DNA of 64,000 nucleotides from the NCBI RefSeq assembly GCF_019670125.1, contig NZ_AP023033.1, positions 3,399,001 through 3,463,000 of the forward strand, given 5' to 3'. Within the stretch, counting starts at the first letter, position 1, and the number at the start of each line of letters is the position of its first letter. Below the pieces are notes generated by a model. That model had not been told where the DNA came from and made no database searches. It saw only the letters and a program-made list of their open reading frames with translations. A program made the translations under genes and the position numbers. Of this stretch, positions 24,767 through 36,456 are shown piece after piece. The stretch comes from Agarivorans aestuarii (GTDB lineage Bacteria; Pseudomonadota; Gammaproteobacteria; Enterobacterales; Celerinatantimonadaceae).

Positions 24767-24800
24767 AAGCCGAGTAAGCTAACGCTACTCGGCTTTTTTA
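24767..24800 (+). terminator. Intrinsic terminator after the BCCT gene
   Basis: A 10-bp stem AAGCCGAGTA / TACTCGGCTT followed by a T run. The convergent exonuclease gene ends inside its tail (24798). Confidence 0.88.
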
Positions 24801-25514
24801 TAACCACAGTTTATTGATAGGGGTATCGGGGCTAAAGTGATAATGAATCTGCGCTTGTAATAGCTCCGCAGTTGCAATGGCGTCAGTAAGCGCGTCGTGT
24901 GGCGGGTAATCGGGCAAATTATAGCGGCTTCGAGAATTAGCTAAACGAATTGACACCGGCTTGGGTTTTCGTATCCAATCCATCATCTTTTTCGGTCGAG
25001 CTTCTAGTATGTCGGCCTCTATTTGCATGGTATCGACGATCGGGAAAATTATCCCTTCATTGATTAAACCGCGCAGGGTTTCATACAAAAAATCACGCTC
25101 AATTCTACGGTAATGCACCACCACCACTTTACCGGCTAGCTCATCTAATAATTGCTCCAAAATACGTAATAAACTGGGTGCACCTTTTAGATCTGAGTGA
25201 GTAATACCATGAATCACTATCGAGTCTTCTTGTAGCTTATCTTCGGGCGTTACAAACCAGTGCTTAGCCTGCCTACAAGCAATACGTTGCAGGGTGAATG
25301 GCACTAAACCGATGCTAATAATGCTATTTTTCTTGGCATCCAAACCGGTGGTTTCAAAGTCTAAGGCAACAAACTCAATATCTTTTAGCTTGGTTTCAGC
25401 ATGGTAAGTACTGGCATTGTAAAAATTGCTTAAGCGCTTATCTTTGCTCTCTGAGGCCTTAATTTTGAGAAAGGCCTTCCAGTTTAAAACTTCTTGATGA
25501 GTAATATTAGGCAT
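24798..25514 (-). CDS. DnaQ-like 3'-5' exonuclease
   Basis: A 238-residue protein with a DEDDh exonuclease domain (residues about 45-225). ExoI is ALDFETTGLDAKKNSIISIG, ExoII lies around VVVHYRRIERDFLYE and ExoIII is PPHDALTDAIATAELL. It resembles the DNA polymerase III epsilon-like proteins that accompany the CBS/nucleotidyltransferase gene in many gammaproteobacteria. The start overlaps the upstream stop (TAATG), implying coupled translation. The substrate is unknown. Confidence 0.88.
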   Translation of the reverse strand: MPNITHQEVLNWKAFLKIKASESKDKRLSNFYNASTYHAETKLKDIEFVALDFETTGLDAKKNSIISIGLVPFTLQRIACRQAKHWFVTPEDKLQEDSIVIHGITHSDLKGAPSLLRILEQLLDELAGKVVVVHYRRIERDFLYETLRGLINEGIIFPIVDTMQIEADILEARPKKMMDWIRKPKPVSIRLANSRSRYNLPDYPPHDALTDAIATAELLQAQIHYHFSPDTPINKLWL

Positions 25515-27400
25515 TAGCTATTCTGCATACTATTGGCGGTGTAACGGAACTTTAGAAAGTTTTGCGCACTGCTAAGTACCAAAAACGCATCCTTAAGATT
25601 GCGGCGCTCAAAATCCGACATGTTCTCTGGCTCTATGTTGTTATCCGGTTCTTGGTCAGATTCAATATCTAAGGCTTGGTGGCGGATCCGCACCAAAGAA
25701 ATAAACTCCATGGCATGCTGTAGATCCTTGCCTTTAGAAGAAGGCAAAATACCCGCCTCGATAATGTCTTCTAAGCGGTCAAAAGAGTTCTGCGATTGCG
25801 AGCCAATAGCTAAACCATGCACACGAATTAAGTCCGCCAAGGGAGCAGTCCCGCGACGTTTTAAGTTGATTGAGTTTCTATGTCGGCCATCTTTTTCCAT
25901 CACAAAGTCTTTAAAAAACCCTAATGGCGGTGTGCGATTCAAGGCATTTCGGGCTAAACAAGCTAAAAAGCGATTATTCTTTTTGGCTTTTCGCAAGATA
26001 AACGCATTTAACTGCTCAGCCCATTTAGGGCGACCGAACACTCCATATAAATCAAAGAATATGGAGCAGTTAAGTAAGGCTTGCGGGTTGGGGTTATCTA
26101 TCCAATCGGCAAAGCATTCTTCCCACTGGCTTTGAGTTTTACGGTACTCAGGATTAGTGGCCATAATCTCGCCGCTACAATAGGTGTAACCACAAGCCGC
26201 TAAGCCATCACATACATAAGTCGCCAGTTCCTCAAAGTACTTACCATGCAAGTCTTCTTGATACTCGTTACTCAAAATAATCGCATTATCTTGGTCGGTA
26301 ACAATTAGCTGCTCGTCTCGCGCCATTGAGCCAAGCGCTAAAAAGCAGTATGGCACCGGCGGCGGGCCAAGTTTTTCTTCGGCCAACTCTAACAGCCGCT
26401 GCTTAAAGCTTCTGCCAATTTCCGACATGGCTCGGCCAATCATGTGTGAATTGGCGTCTTCGTGAATCATCCGCACAAAACAATCTTTAGTTTGATGCGA
26501 CAGTAGAATAAGATCATCAATACTGTTTTGCTGGAAAATACTGCTTACTATCAGCAAGCTGTTTTTTGATTCATAACGGATCAGGTCTGTGACTTCAATG
26601 AGTCCAATTGGTCGCTTGTTTTTAAGAATAGGCAGGTGATGCACGTTGTAACGCAACATCATTAACATTGCTTCAAAGATATAGGCATTGTGGTCGAGGG
26701 AAACCAGCTCGGTAGACATCACCTCATCCACTTGGGTATCTACATCCAAGCCCTGAGCAATCACTTTGGCGCACAAATCACGCTGGGTAATAATGCCCAC
26801 AAAGCTTTCACCACCTTCGTCATCCAAGCTTAGATCTTTAATCAGCGCAGCCGAAACATTCTCTTCCGACATAACCATGGCTACGTCTTTAATCGAAGTG
26901 CTAGAGGCTAACATCACCGGCGCACCACTCAATATGGTTTTCACCTTAGACGTGGTGAGTGAGTTGGCATCTTCACTATTGTCTTCAACGGCTTGTTGCA
27001 GGCGAATACTGCCTTCAACTTCTACAAAATCAGCAAAAACCTCGTAGCGTTCGCATAGGTCTTCAAAGATGGTTTCAGGAATACAATACAGCAGCGTGTC
27101 TTTAACCGCCTTTGCGGGAAAGCGCACTTTATTGCTGGTTAGCAGCCCCATTTGACCAAACAGGCCACCTTGATCGAGGCGATTATATAACTCTCCAGTT
27201 CGGCGATATATTTCCACCACCCCACTACGGATCATGAACAAATCATGAATTCTGTCGCCAAACTCAATGATCATGCTATCGGCGCGATAGTAGGAAATTT
27301 CGACACTTTTAGAGACCTCAATCAACACTTCGTCTGGCAACTGATCAAACGGTGGGTATTGGCAGATGAAATTACGAATCTCAAGCAGTTCGACGGTCAT
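25514..27400 (-). CDS. cNMP-binding / CBS / DUF294 putative nucleotidyltransferase
   Basis: A 628-residue signalling protein. An N-terminal cyclic-nucleotide-binding domain (about 10-130, GGLFGQMGLL) is followed by a CBS pair (about 155-275). A DUF294 nucleotidyltransferase domain (about 305-450) has GSMARDEQLIVTDQDNAII, with the GS and DxD metal site intact, and a DUF294 C-terminal helical domain (about 460-625) completes it. This GlnD/GlnE-like architecture suggests transfer of a nucleotide to a protein target in response to bound nucleotide. It forms a two-gene operon with the exonuclease. The partner is unknown. Confidence 0.88.
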   Translation of the reverse strand: MTVELLEIRNFICQYPPFDQLPDEVLIEVSKSVEISYYRADSMIIEFGDRIHDLFMIRSGVVEIYRRTGELYNRLDQGGLFGQMGLLTSNKVRFPAKAVKDTLLYCIPETIFEDLCERYEVFADFVEVEGSIRLQQAVEDNSEDANSLTTSKVKTILSGAPVMLASSTSIKDVAMVMSEENVSAALIKDLSLDDEGGESFVGIITQRDLCAKVIAQGLDVDTQVDEVMSTELVSLDHNAYIFEAMLMMLRYNVHHLPILKNKRPIGLIEVTDLIRYESKNSLLIVSSIFQQNSIDDLILLSHQTKDCFVRMIHEDANSHMIGRAMSEIGRSFKQRLLELAEEKLGPPPVPYCFLALGSMARDEQLIVTDQDNAIILSNEYQEDLHGKYFEELATYVCDGLAACGYTYCSGEIMATNPEYRKTQSQWEECFADWIDNPNPQALLNCSIFFDLYGVFGRPKWAEQLNAFILRKAKKNNRFLACLARNALNRTPPLGFFKDFVMEKDGRHRNSINLKRRGTAPLADLIRVHGLAIGSQSQNSFDRLEDIIEAGILPSSKGKDLQHAMEFISLVRIRHQALDIESDQEPDNNIEPENMSDFERRNLKDAFLVLSSAQNFLKFRYTANSMQNS

Positions 27401-29202: not shown

Positions 29203-29697
29203 ATGATAGAAATTTGCCATGAAAATCCTAACAGCGAACAAAGCAAACAACTGTTAAAAGCCCAAGCCGATTCCTTAATGAAATTAACTGGAAACAGCGC
29301 GGTTGAATGTTTTAATGAAAGTGAGTTTTTAGCTGAAGATGCAGTATTTCTATTAGTTAAACGTAAGGGTGTAGCCCTCGCCTGCGGTGGTTTTAGGTAT
29401 CTACAACCAGGTATTTGTGAAATGAAGCGAATTTACTCGCATCAGGCTGGATTGGGTAAGGTTATTTTGCAAGCTCTAGAGCAATACGCTGTAACTCTGG
29501 GTTATCAACAAATAAATTTAGCCACCCGTAACTCAAACACTCAAGCCATCCAGTTTTACGCTAAACACGGCTACCGAGCTATCTCGCCTTTTGGTGTTTA
29601 TAGTCACCATCCTCATTATTTGAGTTTGGCTAAATCACTCGCCAATGCTGAGCAGACGCTAAGCATAAAAAAAGCGCAGCTTAGTCGCTGCGCTTAA
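29203..29697 (+). CDS. GNAT family N-acetyltransferase
   Basis: A 164-residue acetyltransferase. The core shows MKRIYSHQAGLGKVILQALE, in which motif A is altered from the usual Q/RxxGxG/A to HQAGLG, then the beta5-alpha4 region NLATRNSNTQAIQFYAKHGY typical of the family. The substrate is unknown. The last codons (KKAQLSRCA) lie inside the terminator hairpin of the convergent GH14 gene, so the 3' end is doubly used. Confidence 0.85.
   Translation: MIEICHENPNSEQSKQLLKAQADSLMKLTGNSAVECFNESEFLAEDAVFLLVKRKGVALACGGFRYLQPGICEMKRIYSHQAGLGKVILQALEQYAVTLGYQQINLATRNSNTQAIQFYAKHGYRAISPFGVYSHHPHYLSLAKSLANAEQTLSIKKAQLSRCA
29667..29695 (-). terminator. Terminator of the GH14 gene, inside the GNAT 3' end
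   Basis: AAGCGCAGC / GCTGCGCTT stem with loop TTAGTC; on the minus strand a seven-T run follows. It lies within the coding sequence of the convergent acetyltransferase. Confidence 0.85.
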
Positions 29698-29714: not shown

Positions 29715-32378
29715 TCAGCTAATGCGGTTAATCAGCTTTCTTAGCTCACGCATTGGCGTTGGCTCATCATCAAAGAAGTTTTGCATTCTTAACAAGGTTA
29801 AACCATCGTAGCCAGGTGCGCGCGTTAGCGCTCGTGCCATTTGCTTCCAACCCTGCTCGCCATATAACTCACCAGCAAGGGCATTTTCACCCATCAGTGA
29901 TACTTGGCATTCGTCCGCTGCATCGGCCATCCAGTCCACTAAATCAGCTGCGCGAGAATAACCTTCATAGTCTTTGTTTATCATTTCTAAACAAGTGAAA
30001 TGAATCGCGGCACGCGCTTGCTTGCCTTCTGGCAACAAGGCTTTTAGCAAACCAAGATATTCTTGTTGGTTATTGCTGCTTAGCGTTGGGTGCACCGCAA
30101 TTAAGCCAGCAGTAATTTCGGCCGCACGTGGCAATTCGGGGTCACTCACTACCCAGTGAATGCCTGGAATTTTAATCCCAATAGGTACCTGACCAAATGA
30201 GTCATCGTCAAACACGCCCAGCGCATTTTCAAAAATACGTCGACCATGAGCCACCAAGGCTTTGTGGTACCAAGTTAAAAACTCGCGCGCCCAAGAGTTA
30301 TGAATATAGCGCTTGTGACTAAATAGCCAATCTGCATCGGGTATTTCGGCTTGTTCAAAACTGTCCCAAGTGAAGCCAAAGCTGCCATTTAGCGCGGCAA
30401 TGCTGTGGTACTTCTCTTTTAAGTAACGCAACCAATCTTGTTTGGCTAAGCGGCTGTAACACTGCAAGGTGCCGCGGTTAGGGTAATTACCCCAATCGTG
30501 GGCGTTGTAGCTTGGATAACGCAACTCACCGGCAGGGCCTAGGCTTACGTTGATTTCATCCATCAAACCAGCTTGGTTAATGTAATGCTGCTTAAAGGCT
30601 TCCATAAAGCGCTGGTAATAAGGCATCACAAATTCGTCGGCCCACAGCGATACGTACTCCATGGAGGCATCACCGGTTTCCGAAACATATTGCAGATCTT
30701 GCACCGAATTTAGCTGATCGTTACTCTCTAGCAAACGGCCCCACAACCACAAGGGAATGGCTTGCATAAAGTCATCGTTCACATTGCCGCCCGCCTGGTG
30801 GAACGACAAAATAGGTACCCATTGCAAACCTAAACGCTTAAGCAGGCTAACTACGCGATCGTAATAACTCCAGTCAAACTTTCCTGGCTTGTCACCTTCA
30901 ACCAAACCCCACCAAATATCGGTAGAAATAGCGGTAACACCAATACTGCGAAGCTGGCGTAGTTGCGCTTCAAACTGTTTCCAGTTTTCTTCATCCAGCA
31001 ACTGCTTTTGGTTGGCCACTTTAAGATGTAACGGCCCCATAACACGGAATTGCTTTTTACCTAATTGCTTAGTTTCGGCAATTTGATACTTAAACTTATT
31101 TAATTGCGACAAGCGGCCTTTAACAATCGCCTGCTCATTAAGCTGCGACATATCGTTAAAGATCCAGCCTTCAAATGCACTGCCATGTAATACCGAATGA
31201 TAGAGCTGATCCCAACCAGGGTGGCTAGCCAGCGCCTGTGGTTGCGAGTTTTGCACTAATGCCGGTATTTTAAGCTTACGCATTGCAGTAAGTAAGGCTT
31301 GGTTAACGCGAGTGGCATGGCTTGATTCTGCACCACTGGCCACAATTAACAAACGACCTGCAGCTTGAACATGCCAATACTCTAATTGAGCAATGTGGTA
31401 ATCGAGCAACTGCGGGCGATCTAGCCACGGCTGTGGATTAATCCCGGTTAAACAGCCCAACCAAGGGTGATCACTGGCAGTAAGCTCTGGCATAGGAATG
31501 TTTAAACACAACTGGCTGTGCGCCCATACATCAGCAAATTGCTGCTCAGCAGTGGCCAATACCTTACCCACATAGGCTTGCCAATTGCTGGCATACCATG
31601 CATTAAACTCTTTAAAGCAGGTATTACTAGTTTTGTTCTTGTAACAACGGCTTAGGGTTTCAGCCAGTTGTTCTTGCCAAGGCGTATCGCCGTTTAGCTC
31701 CCACAAACTCAACCACGCTTGTTGCGAACCATATTGTAGCTGCATGTCGTCGGCTAAGGCTGCCAATGCTGTTGGGCTAAAGCTTTGATAGATAGGTTGG
31801 CCATCACGCTCGCCCCAAGGAATACAAGCCTCGCCATTTGGGCCTAAACCCAGTAATAAGGCATCACAACGTGGGGCAAACTCGGCCATGTGCTGGGCAA
31901 AGCAGCCCATCCATTGGCCAAACATGTCCACCAAACCAGCTTCAGCCCATAAACTTGGGCTTTGGGTATTGTCGCGGCCATATTGGTTAACGTACTTAAT
32001 CGCATCAGCGCTTTGGTTTTTCGGCAAGGCGGCCAGCATAGAGCCCCAAAACCAATCAGGAAGACGTTGTTCAACCCCTTGCTGGGTATCGGAAGAAAAG
32101 AACAACTGGTATTGCAGCTTAAAGCCATGCGACACCAAATGCGCAGACAAGCGCTTAAGAGAGGCCCAGCACTCTGCCTGATCTAATTGTTCGGCACTAA
32201 ATGGTGCGATATAGCGCCAATGCACTGGCACTACCAAGGCATCTACGCCATTTTGGCGCAAATTACGAAGTTGTGGAGATAAGCTCTGAAGCTGAGCTTG
32301 ATTACATGAAGCGGCATACTCAGCCAGTGGTAAAGAACCCTTTACCCAAGCTTTGCGTGCTGAAATTGGATTAGCCAT
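29715..32378 (-). CDS. Beta-amylase-family (GH14) protein with two tandem GH14 modules
   Basis: An 887-residue protein without a signal peptide. The C-terminal module (about 445-870) is a clear GH14 catalytic domain: STDIWWGLVEG, LSFHQAGGNV, SLGPAGELRYPSY with the acid Glu618, IPGIHW and FTCLEM with the base Glu798. The N-terminal half (about 35-415) aligns to it by eye along its length: SLWAEAGLVDMFGQWM versus SLWADEFVMPYYQRFM, LGLGPNGEACIPW versus SLGPAGELRYPSY, and GWDQLYHSVL versus GWKQMARALT. It keeps Glu at both catalytic positions (183, 351) but has lost the DIWWG, FHQAGGN and GIHW sugar-binding motifs. The expected reaction is release of beta-maltose from alpha-1,4-glucan, probably intracellular. 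It is a lone gene with its own terminator. Confidence 0.85.
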   Translation of the reverse strand: MANPISARKAWVKGSLPLAEYAASCNQAQLQSLSPQLRNLRQNGVDALVVPVHWRYIAPFSAEQLDQAECWASLKRLSAHLVSHGFKLQYQLFFSSDTQQGVEQRLPDWFWGSMLAALPKNQSADAIKYVNQYGRDNTQSPSLWAEAGLVDMFGQWMGCFAQHMAEFAPRCDALLLGLGPNGEACIPWGERDGQPIYQSFSPTALAALADDMQLQYGSQQAWLSLWELNGDTPWQEQLAETLSRCYKNKTSNTCFKEFNAWYASNWQAYVGKVLATAEQQFADVWAHSQLCLNIPMPELTASDHPWLGCLTGINPQPWLDRPQLLDYHIAQLEYWHVQAAGRLLIVASGAESSHATRVNQALLTAMRKLKIPALVQNSQPQALASHPGWDQLYHSVLHGSAFEGWIFNDMSQLNEQAIVKGRLSQLNKFKYQIAETKQLGKKQFRVMGPLHLKVANQKQLLDEENWKQFEAQLRQLRSIGVTAISTDIWWGLVEGDKPGKFDWSYYDRVVSLLKRLGLQWVPILSFHQAGGNVNDDFMQAIPLWLWGRLLESNDQLNSVQDLQYVSETGDASMEYVSLWADEFVMPYYQRFMEAFKQHYINQAGLMDEINVSLGPAGELRYPSYNAHDWGNYPNRGTLQCYSRLAKQDWLRYLKEKYHSIAALNGSFGFTWDSFEQAEIPDADWLFSHKRYIHNSWAREFLTWYHKALVAHGRRIFENALGVFDDDSFGQVPIGIKIPGIHWVVSDPELPRAAEITAGLIAVHPTLSSNNQQEYLGLLKALLPEGKQARAAIHFTCLEMINKDYEGYSRAADLVDWMADAADECQVSLMGENALAGELYGEQGWKQMARALTRAPGYDGLTLLRMQNFFDDEPTPMRELRKLINRIS

Positions 32379-34656: not shown

Positions 34657-35586
34657 TTGTTTAAGCCATCTCCGGTACAGTTGGTACATTTTCAGCATAA
34701 GAAAATCTACGTAAAGCGAGATGATTTACTGCACCCGCAGTTCTCTGGCAACAAAGCGCGTAAGTTCTACCACTTCTTAAATCACCCGCAACCGGGCGTA
34801 AGCACCCTGGTTGGCAGTGGCTCTGCACAAGCCAACTCCCTGTATTCCTTGGCTGCGTTGGCAAAGCTCAAGCAGTGGAAATGCGAGTTCTACGTTGACC
34901 ATATTCCCAGCTGGCTAAAGCAAAACCCTTGTGGCAACTATCAAGCTGCTCTAGAGCTAGGCGCGCGGATCATTGAAGTAAGTAGCTTGCATCGACAACA
35001 GCAAGCTAATTTAGACAGTTTTATGCAAACCATTGTTAAGCCAAGCTTATCGCCGCAGCAATTGTTTATCCCTGAAGGTGGCCGTTGTGAATACGCCCGA
35101 GAAGGGGTGGTTACCCTAGCGGAAGAAATTGAACAGTGGCAGCATCAAAACCACATTGGTCGTTTAAATGTAATGCTGCCAGCGGGCACCGGTACTACGG
35201 CCTTGTTTTTGAATGAATATTTTAGTCAAATGAATCCCTGCATAAGGGTATATAGCTGCGCCTGTGTTGGAGATGAAAACTACCTAAGCCTGCAATTTAC
35301 CCAACTTAATAGTAATACCTCCACCCACCCAATTATTCTGCCGCGTGAAAAGAAGTATCACTTTGGCAAGTTATATAAAGAACACTACCAAACCTGGCTA
35401 GACCTTAAGCAGCAAACCGAGCTTGAGTTTGAACTGCTCTACGACCCCATTGGTTGGCAATGTTTAATGCGCTTTCTTGAAGAACCAGCTGATGACACCC
35501 CAACTTTATATATTCACCAAGGTGGTTTATTGGGTAACCAAAGCATGCTGCCACGTTATAAACGTAAATACCCCGAATTAACTTAA
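34657..35586 (+). CDS. ACC deaminase / D-cysteine desulfhydrase family PLP enzyme
   Basis: A 309-residue fold-type II PLP enzyme. The segment VKRDDLLHPQFSGNKARKF holds the PLP-binding Lys (GNK). GSGSAQANS and LPAGTGTTALFL supply the phosphate-binding contacts, and YIHQGGLLGN closes the site. The family includes ACC deaminases and D-cysteine desulfhydrases; gammaproteobacterial members are usually of unknown substrate. The first usable codon is TTG at 34657, with no ATG or clear ribosome site upstream, so the start is uncertain. Its 3' end overlaps the convergent gene by 4 bases. Confidence 0.8.
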   Translation: MFKPSPVQLVHFQHKKIYVKRDDLLHPQFSGNKARKFYHFLNHPQPGVSTLVGSGSAQANSLYSLAALAKLKQWKCEFYVDHIPSWLKQNPCGNYQAALELGARIIEVSSLHRQQQANLDSFMQTIVKPSLSPQQLFIPEGGRCEYAREGVVTLAEEIEQWQHQNHIGRLNVMLPAGTGTTALFLNEYFSQMNPCIRVYSCACVGDENYLSLQFTQLNSNTSTHPIILPREKKYHFGKLYKEHYQTWLDLKQQTELEFELLYDPIGWQCLMRFLEEPADDTPTLYIHQGGLLGNQSMLPRYKRKYPELT

Positions 35587-36338
35587 CGCCAATCTAACCA
35601 ATAACTGTAAGGAAACCTTTCGGACAAACTCACTGTTTCTTGATAGTGAGGACTAGGGCTATTTAAGCACTCAGTGCCATGAAACTCGGGTTCGGCCCAG
35701 CCAGTATTTTCGTCCAGGTATTCGCGGCTATAACCCCAGCGGCCACAAGACAAAATGGTGTCATAGCCTTGGTCTCGTTGGCACACCACGCAGGTTTCAA
35801 ACTCCACCATGATATCTTGGCCTTCTTTACCTAAGGCGTCAGACACAAAAGGCGTATCATAAATTGCTAAGGTAGAAGCCCTAGAAGGCGGCTCATTCCA
35901 AGGTTTATCGCTGGTATCTGCAGGCGTTTGGTGCACACCACTGCCATGTTCTAGTGGAGAGGCGTCATAAAAAGGTTCTACAAAGCTAGACGGCGCATCA
36001 ATTTGCGCCCTCTGTTCATCACCTAATAAGCGGCGATTAGTGGTGCGAATTTGCAGCATTCGGTATTGATTACACTGGGCTTGGTTGGCTAAGTCTAACT
36101 CACCTAAACGATTGGCAAATAGGTGGATTTCTAGACCTACTCCAGTAGCGTTATCGCGTGGAATATAGGACGCTTGTTGGCGACTGCTGTGATACCAGGC
36201 TTCTGAAAAGACCAATACGCCCAGCGTTTGCTGCTGATAAGTAACCGGGCACACCTTGCCCACCCATAACTCTTCAGCGACTAGAGCTGAACTTAAGCTG
36301 CAATAGCTTAGTGTTATCCATAAGCAAGCTCGAGTCAT
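35583..36338 (-). CDS. Hypothetical secreted protein
   Basis: A 251-residue protein with a signal peptide (TRACLWITLSYCSLSSALVA) and a mature part rich in Trp, Tyr and acidic residues. It has several cysteines, including CVVC and CGRWGYSREYLDENTGW, suggesting disulfides in the periplasm or outside the cell. The frame opens at a TTG (36353), but the ATG at 36338 gives the natural signal peptide. No family is recognised. Confidence 0.7.
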   Translation of the reverse strand: MTRACLWITLSYCSLSSALVAEELWVGKVCPVTYQQQTLGVLVFSEAWYHSSRQQASYIPRDNATGVGLEIHLFANRLGELDLANQAQCNQYRMLQIRTTNRRLLGDEQRAQIDAPSSFVEPFYDASPLEHGSGVHQTPADTSDKPWNEPPSRASTLAIYDTPFVSDALGKEGQDIMVEFETCVVCQRDQGYDTILSCGRWGYSREYLDENTGWAEPEFHGTECLNSPSPHYQETVSLSERFPYSYWLDWR

Positions 36339-36456
36339 AAGCCATTCCCGCAACCACTTTCATGCAAATGTCATTTAAGTGTAGTCGCTATGACACAAGC
36401 TAATAGTAAAGAGCGAGCTTTAAATCATTACAAGCGCTAGCTTAGAAGGCTTAATG

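Follow-up and report, generated by a model that had tools for sequence, protein, structure and literature searches.

The gene at positions 29715-32378 (minus strand) of the window, by which we mean the whole stretch of 64,000 nucleotides analysed here (positions 3399001-3463000 of the 4.69 Mb single-contig genome of Agarivorans aestuarii), probably encodes a cytoplasmic beta-amylase in which the C-terminal GH14 module is active and is joined, in one chain, to a GH14 pseudoenzyme at the N-terminal end. The gene is a single uninterrupted open reading frame of 887 codons, and its product is made up of an N-terminal module (N-module; residues 1-443, 31050-32378, minus strand) and a putatively catalytic C-terminal module (C-module; residues 444-887, 29718-31049, minus strand). 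In the mechanism proposed, the protein would stay in the cytoplasm, the C-module would cleave maltose from the chain ends of glycogen or maltodextrin, and the N-module would act without catalysis, as a fold partner, an allosteric control or a glucan-holding surface for the C-module.

Two GH14 modules in one chain

Both halves of the protein are GH14 in sequence, and the N-terminal half is also GH14 in its predicted fold. The C-half, scanned together with five extra linker residues, matched Pfam PF01373 at 294.1 bits over profile positions 8-392 of 402 and the N-half at 46.2 bits over residues 27-284, against a cut-off of 27. When the two halves were compared with each other, BLASTP gave E = 1e-16 with 24% identity across 289 columns. 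The profile-profile comparison of N-modules (18 rows, 17 of them used) with C-modules (18 rows, one truncated), a check proposed in the preliminary description of this DNA, gave E = 1.2e-34 over 392 columns. The tandem arrangement claimed there is borne out. The motif pairs it quoted as matching between the halves are present and aligned, and its self-alignment offset of about 435 residues is exact at Trp144/Trp579 and Glu183/Glu618 and grows to 455 at Trp389/Trp844.

Consistent with this, the N-half on its own retrieved beta-amylases from the PDB (3voc best, E = 4.4e-07; the C-module matched the same entry at E = 9.3e-63), and every one of the 29 distinct sequences that a 21-row N-module profile picked up there at E <= 0.001 is a beta-amylase. 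All 21 N-modules matched PF01373 at E <= 1, and in the sample of the host order each of the 22 two-module genomes has an N-module above the curated cut-off. The predicted structure of the N-module (pLDDT 86.8, pTM 0.89) had solved GH14 structures as its first 31 matches, with TM 0.68-0.75 by query length; other TIM-barrel, glycosidase-like folds followed from rank 32 onwards at E = 2e-07 and weaker. The first ~430 residues do, then, resemble GH14, the point on which the tandem proposal had been made to depend. In the full-length model (pLDDT 83.2, pTM 0.72) several C-module loops, including 529-538 and 800-807, are of low confidence. Searches with this model also returned Klotho, at ranks 35, 44 and 50. 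Klotho is an animal membrane receptor with tandem, non-catalytic GH1 modules and, as two glycosidase folds in one chain, offers no more than an analogy.

Just 3' of the gene a 9-pair stem followed by TTTTT (29672-29695, minus strand) is a weak candidate for an intrinsic terminator, because such sites are no commoner in the region than in shuffled sequence (5 found, 5.0 expected). The promoter scan of the region returned fewer sites than the shuffles did (2 against 5.6).

Active-site residues of the two modules

The two modules were compared residue by residue in one alignment that combined 21 N-modules and 21 C-modules with five single-module proteins. Asp487, His527, Glu618, Lys736, Thr795, Glu831, Asn832 and Arg864 are kept in every one of the C-modules; we take Asp487, His527, Lys736 and Arg864 to correspond to numbered residues of soybean beta-amylase. 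Alignment to the Bacillus cereus beta-amylase places Glu618 (codon 30525-30527, minus strand) at Glu172 and Glu831 (29886-29888, minus strand) at Glu367, given as the acid and the base, respectively, in the available text on that enzyme (PMC6394054). Both the general acid and the general base glutamates of GH14 are thus present in the C-module, which, as judged from the alignment, has a complete inverting active site. Bacillus and Paenibacillus GH14 enzymes (1b90, 3voc) have the same catalytic residues as the C-module and one GH14 module each.

As first described, the C-copy carries the expected GH14 motifs and the N-copy lacks equivalents of DIWWG, FHQAGGNV and GIHW. The further claim that the N-copy keeps both acid and base, as Glu183 and Glu351, stands in its first half only. 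Glu183 (31830-31832, minus strand) does align with the acid Glu618; Glu351, a position occupied by Glu in 9 of the 21 N-modules, aligns with Glu798 of the FTCLEM motif and not with the base. Since the true base lies in the GENAL motif (Glu831), where the N-module has Gln376 (31251-31253, minus strand), the first half has lost its base. In addition, the A. aestuarii N-module has Ser at the inner-loop Thr, is devoid of the GGNVGD flexible loop and has replacements at the counterparts of Lys736 and Arg864, so that it falls short of an active beta-amylase on each of these points.

Across the 21 N-modules the counterpart of Asp487 is invariably Pro, that of Lys736 is Arg (16), Asn (3) or Leu (2), and that of Arg864 is Asp (15), Asn (5) or Ser (1). 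The acid position is more often retained (Glu 18, Asp 2, Gln 1), as is the base (Glu 14, Gln 5, Gly 2). Gln at the base is confined to the A. aestuarii protein, Agarivorans T001, Alginatibacterium and two Aliagarivorans proteins, and the most GH14-like N-module is that of Persicobacter. Loss of the active site is, on this alignment, graded across the N-modules, with the group of the Agarivorans protein among the furthest gone. Glu is found at acid and base together in 13 of the 21, so that beyond the Agarivorans group, and in Persicobacter most of all, the loss of activity is less certain.

A glucan-binding or regulatory role for the first module, suggested in the preliminary description, is plausible. 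In its simplest form the N-module would merely hold glucan and affect the C-module solely by concentrating substrate, which we regard as possible but on the whole doubtful. Seven Trp residues kept in all 21 N-modules could provide such a surface; however, they are also common to the C-module and may serve the fold alone. Moreover, the residues lost from the N-module are those that we take to hold the sugar at subsite -1, which argues against glucan holding. In its favour, the catalytically inactive plant protein BAM4 is reported to bind starch, as far as the available text of two papers goes (PMC12892837, PMC8774843).

Alternatively, the N-module could be a second enzyme of other specificity with a rebuilt active site. 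The glutamates that persist at the acid and base positions in many N-modules are what this reading can draw on, but the A. aestuarii protein has Gln376 at the base, and none of the 21 N-modules keeps any of the three residues Asp487, Lys736 and Arg864. Nor does any new conserved polar cluster stand out among them: 29 positions are alike in at least 19 of the 21 N-module rows, and at 21 of these 29 the residue agrees with the C-module consensus and seems to serve the fold. A second enzyme is therefore improbable, and the earlier suggestion of a differently specific first module is unlikely to hold for the Agarivorans protein, which has lost the base together with the counterparts of Asp487, Lys736 and Arg864.

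Selection, distribution and descent of the N-module

When the A. aestuarii gene was compared with those of three close congeners (dS 0.42-0.56), dN/dS was 0.031-0.040 for the N-module and 0.004-0.010 for the C-module. In one further congener pair (G001/G003) the order was reversed (N 0.010, C 0.064), on few changes. The N-module value was 0.044 in Aliagarivorans and 0.095 and 0.114 in two Psychromonas pairs, with the C-module lower in each case, and Aeromonas simiae and A. diversa gave 0.30 for the N-module against 0.13 for the C-module. Pairs with saturated dS, meaning a value of about 2 and above or none computable, were set aside for this question. In the pairs with unsaturated dS the N-module is under purifying selection. 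At the protein level, identity to the Agarivorans T001 protein is 86.5% for the N-module against 96.2% for the C-module.

That the N-module is a functionless relic in the course of being lost is very improbable and was rejected on the dN/dS values against the close congeners (0.03-0.04), for although in each of the 15 pairs compared it changes faster in protein sequence than the C-module does, none of the 22 two-module genes contains an internal stop and the module is retained in several families and two phyla. The word 'decayed', applied to the first copy in the preliminary description, fits its active-site motifs but not the module as a whole, which looks like a maintained pseudoenzyme. Being kept by selection despite the apparent loss of catalysis, the N-module probably assists the active half or regulates it.

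Two-module proteins form a family found in many genera, in answer to a question raised at the outset. Among 394 genomes of the host order searched with the Pfam GH14 model, 24 gave a full-length match (E below 1e-80), and in 22 of these the two-module form is present as a single frame of 862-952 codons, a count that rests on the Pfam model and not on patterns derived from two-module proteins. The remaining two genomes (G039 and G739) have a full GH14 match in a single-module protein of ~485 codons, with no N-module and with a hydrophobic N-terminus. Of 369 genomes sampled across the class, that of A. aestuarii alone passed the PF01373 cut-off. A scan of named genomes returned 26 loci, of which 21 are two-module, four were classed as single-module because little sequence precedes the GH14 match, without a Pfam scan, and one is undecidable; the ratio is biased because the scan patterns were built from two-module proteins. 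The two-module loci belong to Agarivorans, Alginatibacterium, Aliagarivorans, Neiella, Psychromonas, Aeromonas, Aeromonadaceae metagenome-assembled genomes, Flammeovirga and Persicobacter, and the single-module loci to Nostocaceae, Melainabacteria, Obscuribacterales and Cytophagales. Flammeovirga and Persicobacter belong to a phylum other than that of the host. Two loci were left out of the 21-row tables, one (L066) at which the contig ends before the N-module and one two-module locus (L079) with its C-module cut.

The tree resolves three groups, comprising the N-modules (support 100/99), the single-module proteins (100/99) and the C-modules (89/85). Because the tree is unrooted and carries flags for long branches and uneven composition, it does not separate duplication inside one gene from fusion of older paralogues. 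A likely dead GH14 gene is represented by a fragment with two internal stops (G656:C48:87643-87903) from a different family of the order.

Plant parallels and cellular setting

GH14 pseudoenzymes are already known from plants; a tandem GH14 protein, with a dead and a live module in one bacterial chain, was not found described in the open-access literature searched. The available portion of a paper on Flammeovirga pacifica lists one GH14 beta-amylase, with two modules unmentioned there (PMC5385347). The A. aestuarii protein also illustrates how a pseudoenzyme can be hidden under annotation as one GH14 beta-amylase.

The closest parallels are BAM9 and BAM4, described as follows in the accessible text of one paper (PMC8774843). 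In BAM9 the first Glu is retained, Gln replaces the second and the flexible loop is missing; the protein promotes starch breakdown without measurable activity, and in one study did not bind starch firmly. BAM4 has Arg at the second Glu position and likewise promotes starch breakdown without activity, by a mechanism then not known. Binding of BAM9 to BAM1 and to starch granules is cited in the part of a review that was available (PMC12892837). The A. aestuarii N-module shows the BAM9/BAM4 type of residue pattern, with a GH14 fold, the first Glu kept (Glu183) and the second lost, and it is like BAM9 in having Gln (Gln376) at that place and in the absence of the flexible loop; some other N-modules differ. 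Unlike the bacterial N-module, BAM9 and BAM4 are separate plastid proteins and are not fused to an active GH14 module. A non-catalytic GH14 module inside a larger protein is found in the BZR1-type BAM7 and BAM8, but these are fused to a DNA-binding domain and are nuclear, according to the same accessible text (PMC8774843). A maize structure of the BZR1-type beta-amylase (7upv), identified by its entry title, was among the matches in the fold searches.

Taken further, and with distinctly more reserve than the two-module reading itself, these parallels allow the tentative proposal that a beta-amylase in two bacterial phyla carries its own pseudoenzyme regulator as a permanent part of the chain, forming an intramolecular and independently evolved counterpart of BAM9/BAM4, whose dead module would sense or hold glucan and so control the release of maltose from the cell's own glycogen. 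Non-catalytic beta-amylases are a puzzle in plants, and a dead and a live module in one bacterial chain, with a BAM9-like change of the base to Gln, give a simple system for direct measurement of how one module affects the other. The C-module itself would be a starch- or glycogen-trimming enzyme in a marine bacterium.

A cytoplasmic location is suggested by the N-termini. By a hydropathy count, which is not a signal-peptide predictor, a strongly hydrophobic N-terminal stretch was found in none of 21 two-module proteins (best 15-residue mean <= 1.11) and in three of six single-module proteins (1.95-2.45), G039 and G739 included, as for export; the N-termini used are uncertain where an inner ATG was chosen (Aeromonas diversa) or the start is probably too late (Psychromonas GLG-1). 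The genes for glycogen synthase (glgA), phosphorylase (glgP) and malQ are present in the host and in 24 of 24 genomes tested, consistent with a role on internal glycogen or maltodextrin. They are also found in two genomes of the same family without GH14 (G008 and G010), so that a role on glycogen is not singled out, and they were dropped as a marker of GH14 function. The malQ gene of one genome, placed by inference in the Psychromonas group, is seemingly split into two adjoining frames (G611:C1:1268692-1270451), by a frameshift or a sequencing error.

Clustering of neighbouring open reading frames at 27 loci found no family common to more than two genera, and neighbouring genes were dropped as a functional clue. 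In both Agarivorans and Aliagarivorans a PLP-dependent enzyme (Pfam PALP; 34657-35586 in the window, listed with a TTG start) and a protein of 250-256 residues (35583-36353) are encoded upstream of the GH14 gene. Single two-genus families link Aliagarivorans with Neiella, Psychromonas with an Aeromonadaceae metagenome-assembled genome, Psychromonas with Melainabacteria, and Alginatibacterium with Neiella. Among 20 chosen neighbours scanned with Pfam, 19 had matches, mostly to unrelated metabolism; those related to sugars were, in Neiella, a GH94 enzyme and an MFS sugar transporter and, in Aeromonas diversa, a gene resembling GDP-mannose dehydratase. At three Neiella loci (L068:9526-13286, L070 and L071) the two-module GH14 gene is followed by the MFS_2 sugar transporter and the GH94-like enzyme, as established by Pfam in L068 alone and by clustering in the other two, a pairing not seen at the loci of other genera.

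Elsewhere in the window, a cNMP-binding/CBS/DUF294 nucleotidyltransferase-like protein (by Pfam) is encoded at 25514-27400 (minus strand) and is adjoined at 24798-25514 (minus strand) by the gene for a small protein that, by eye, resembles a DnaQ-type exonuclease.
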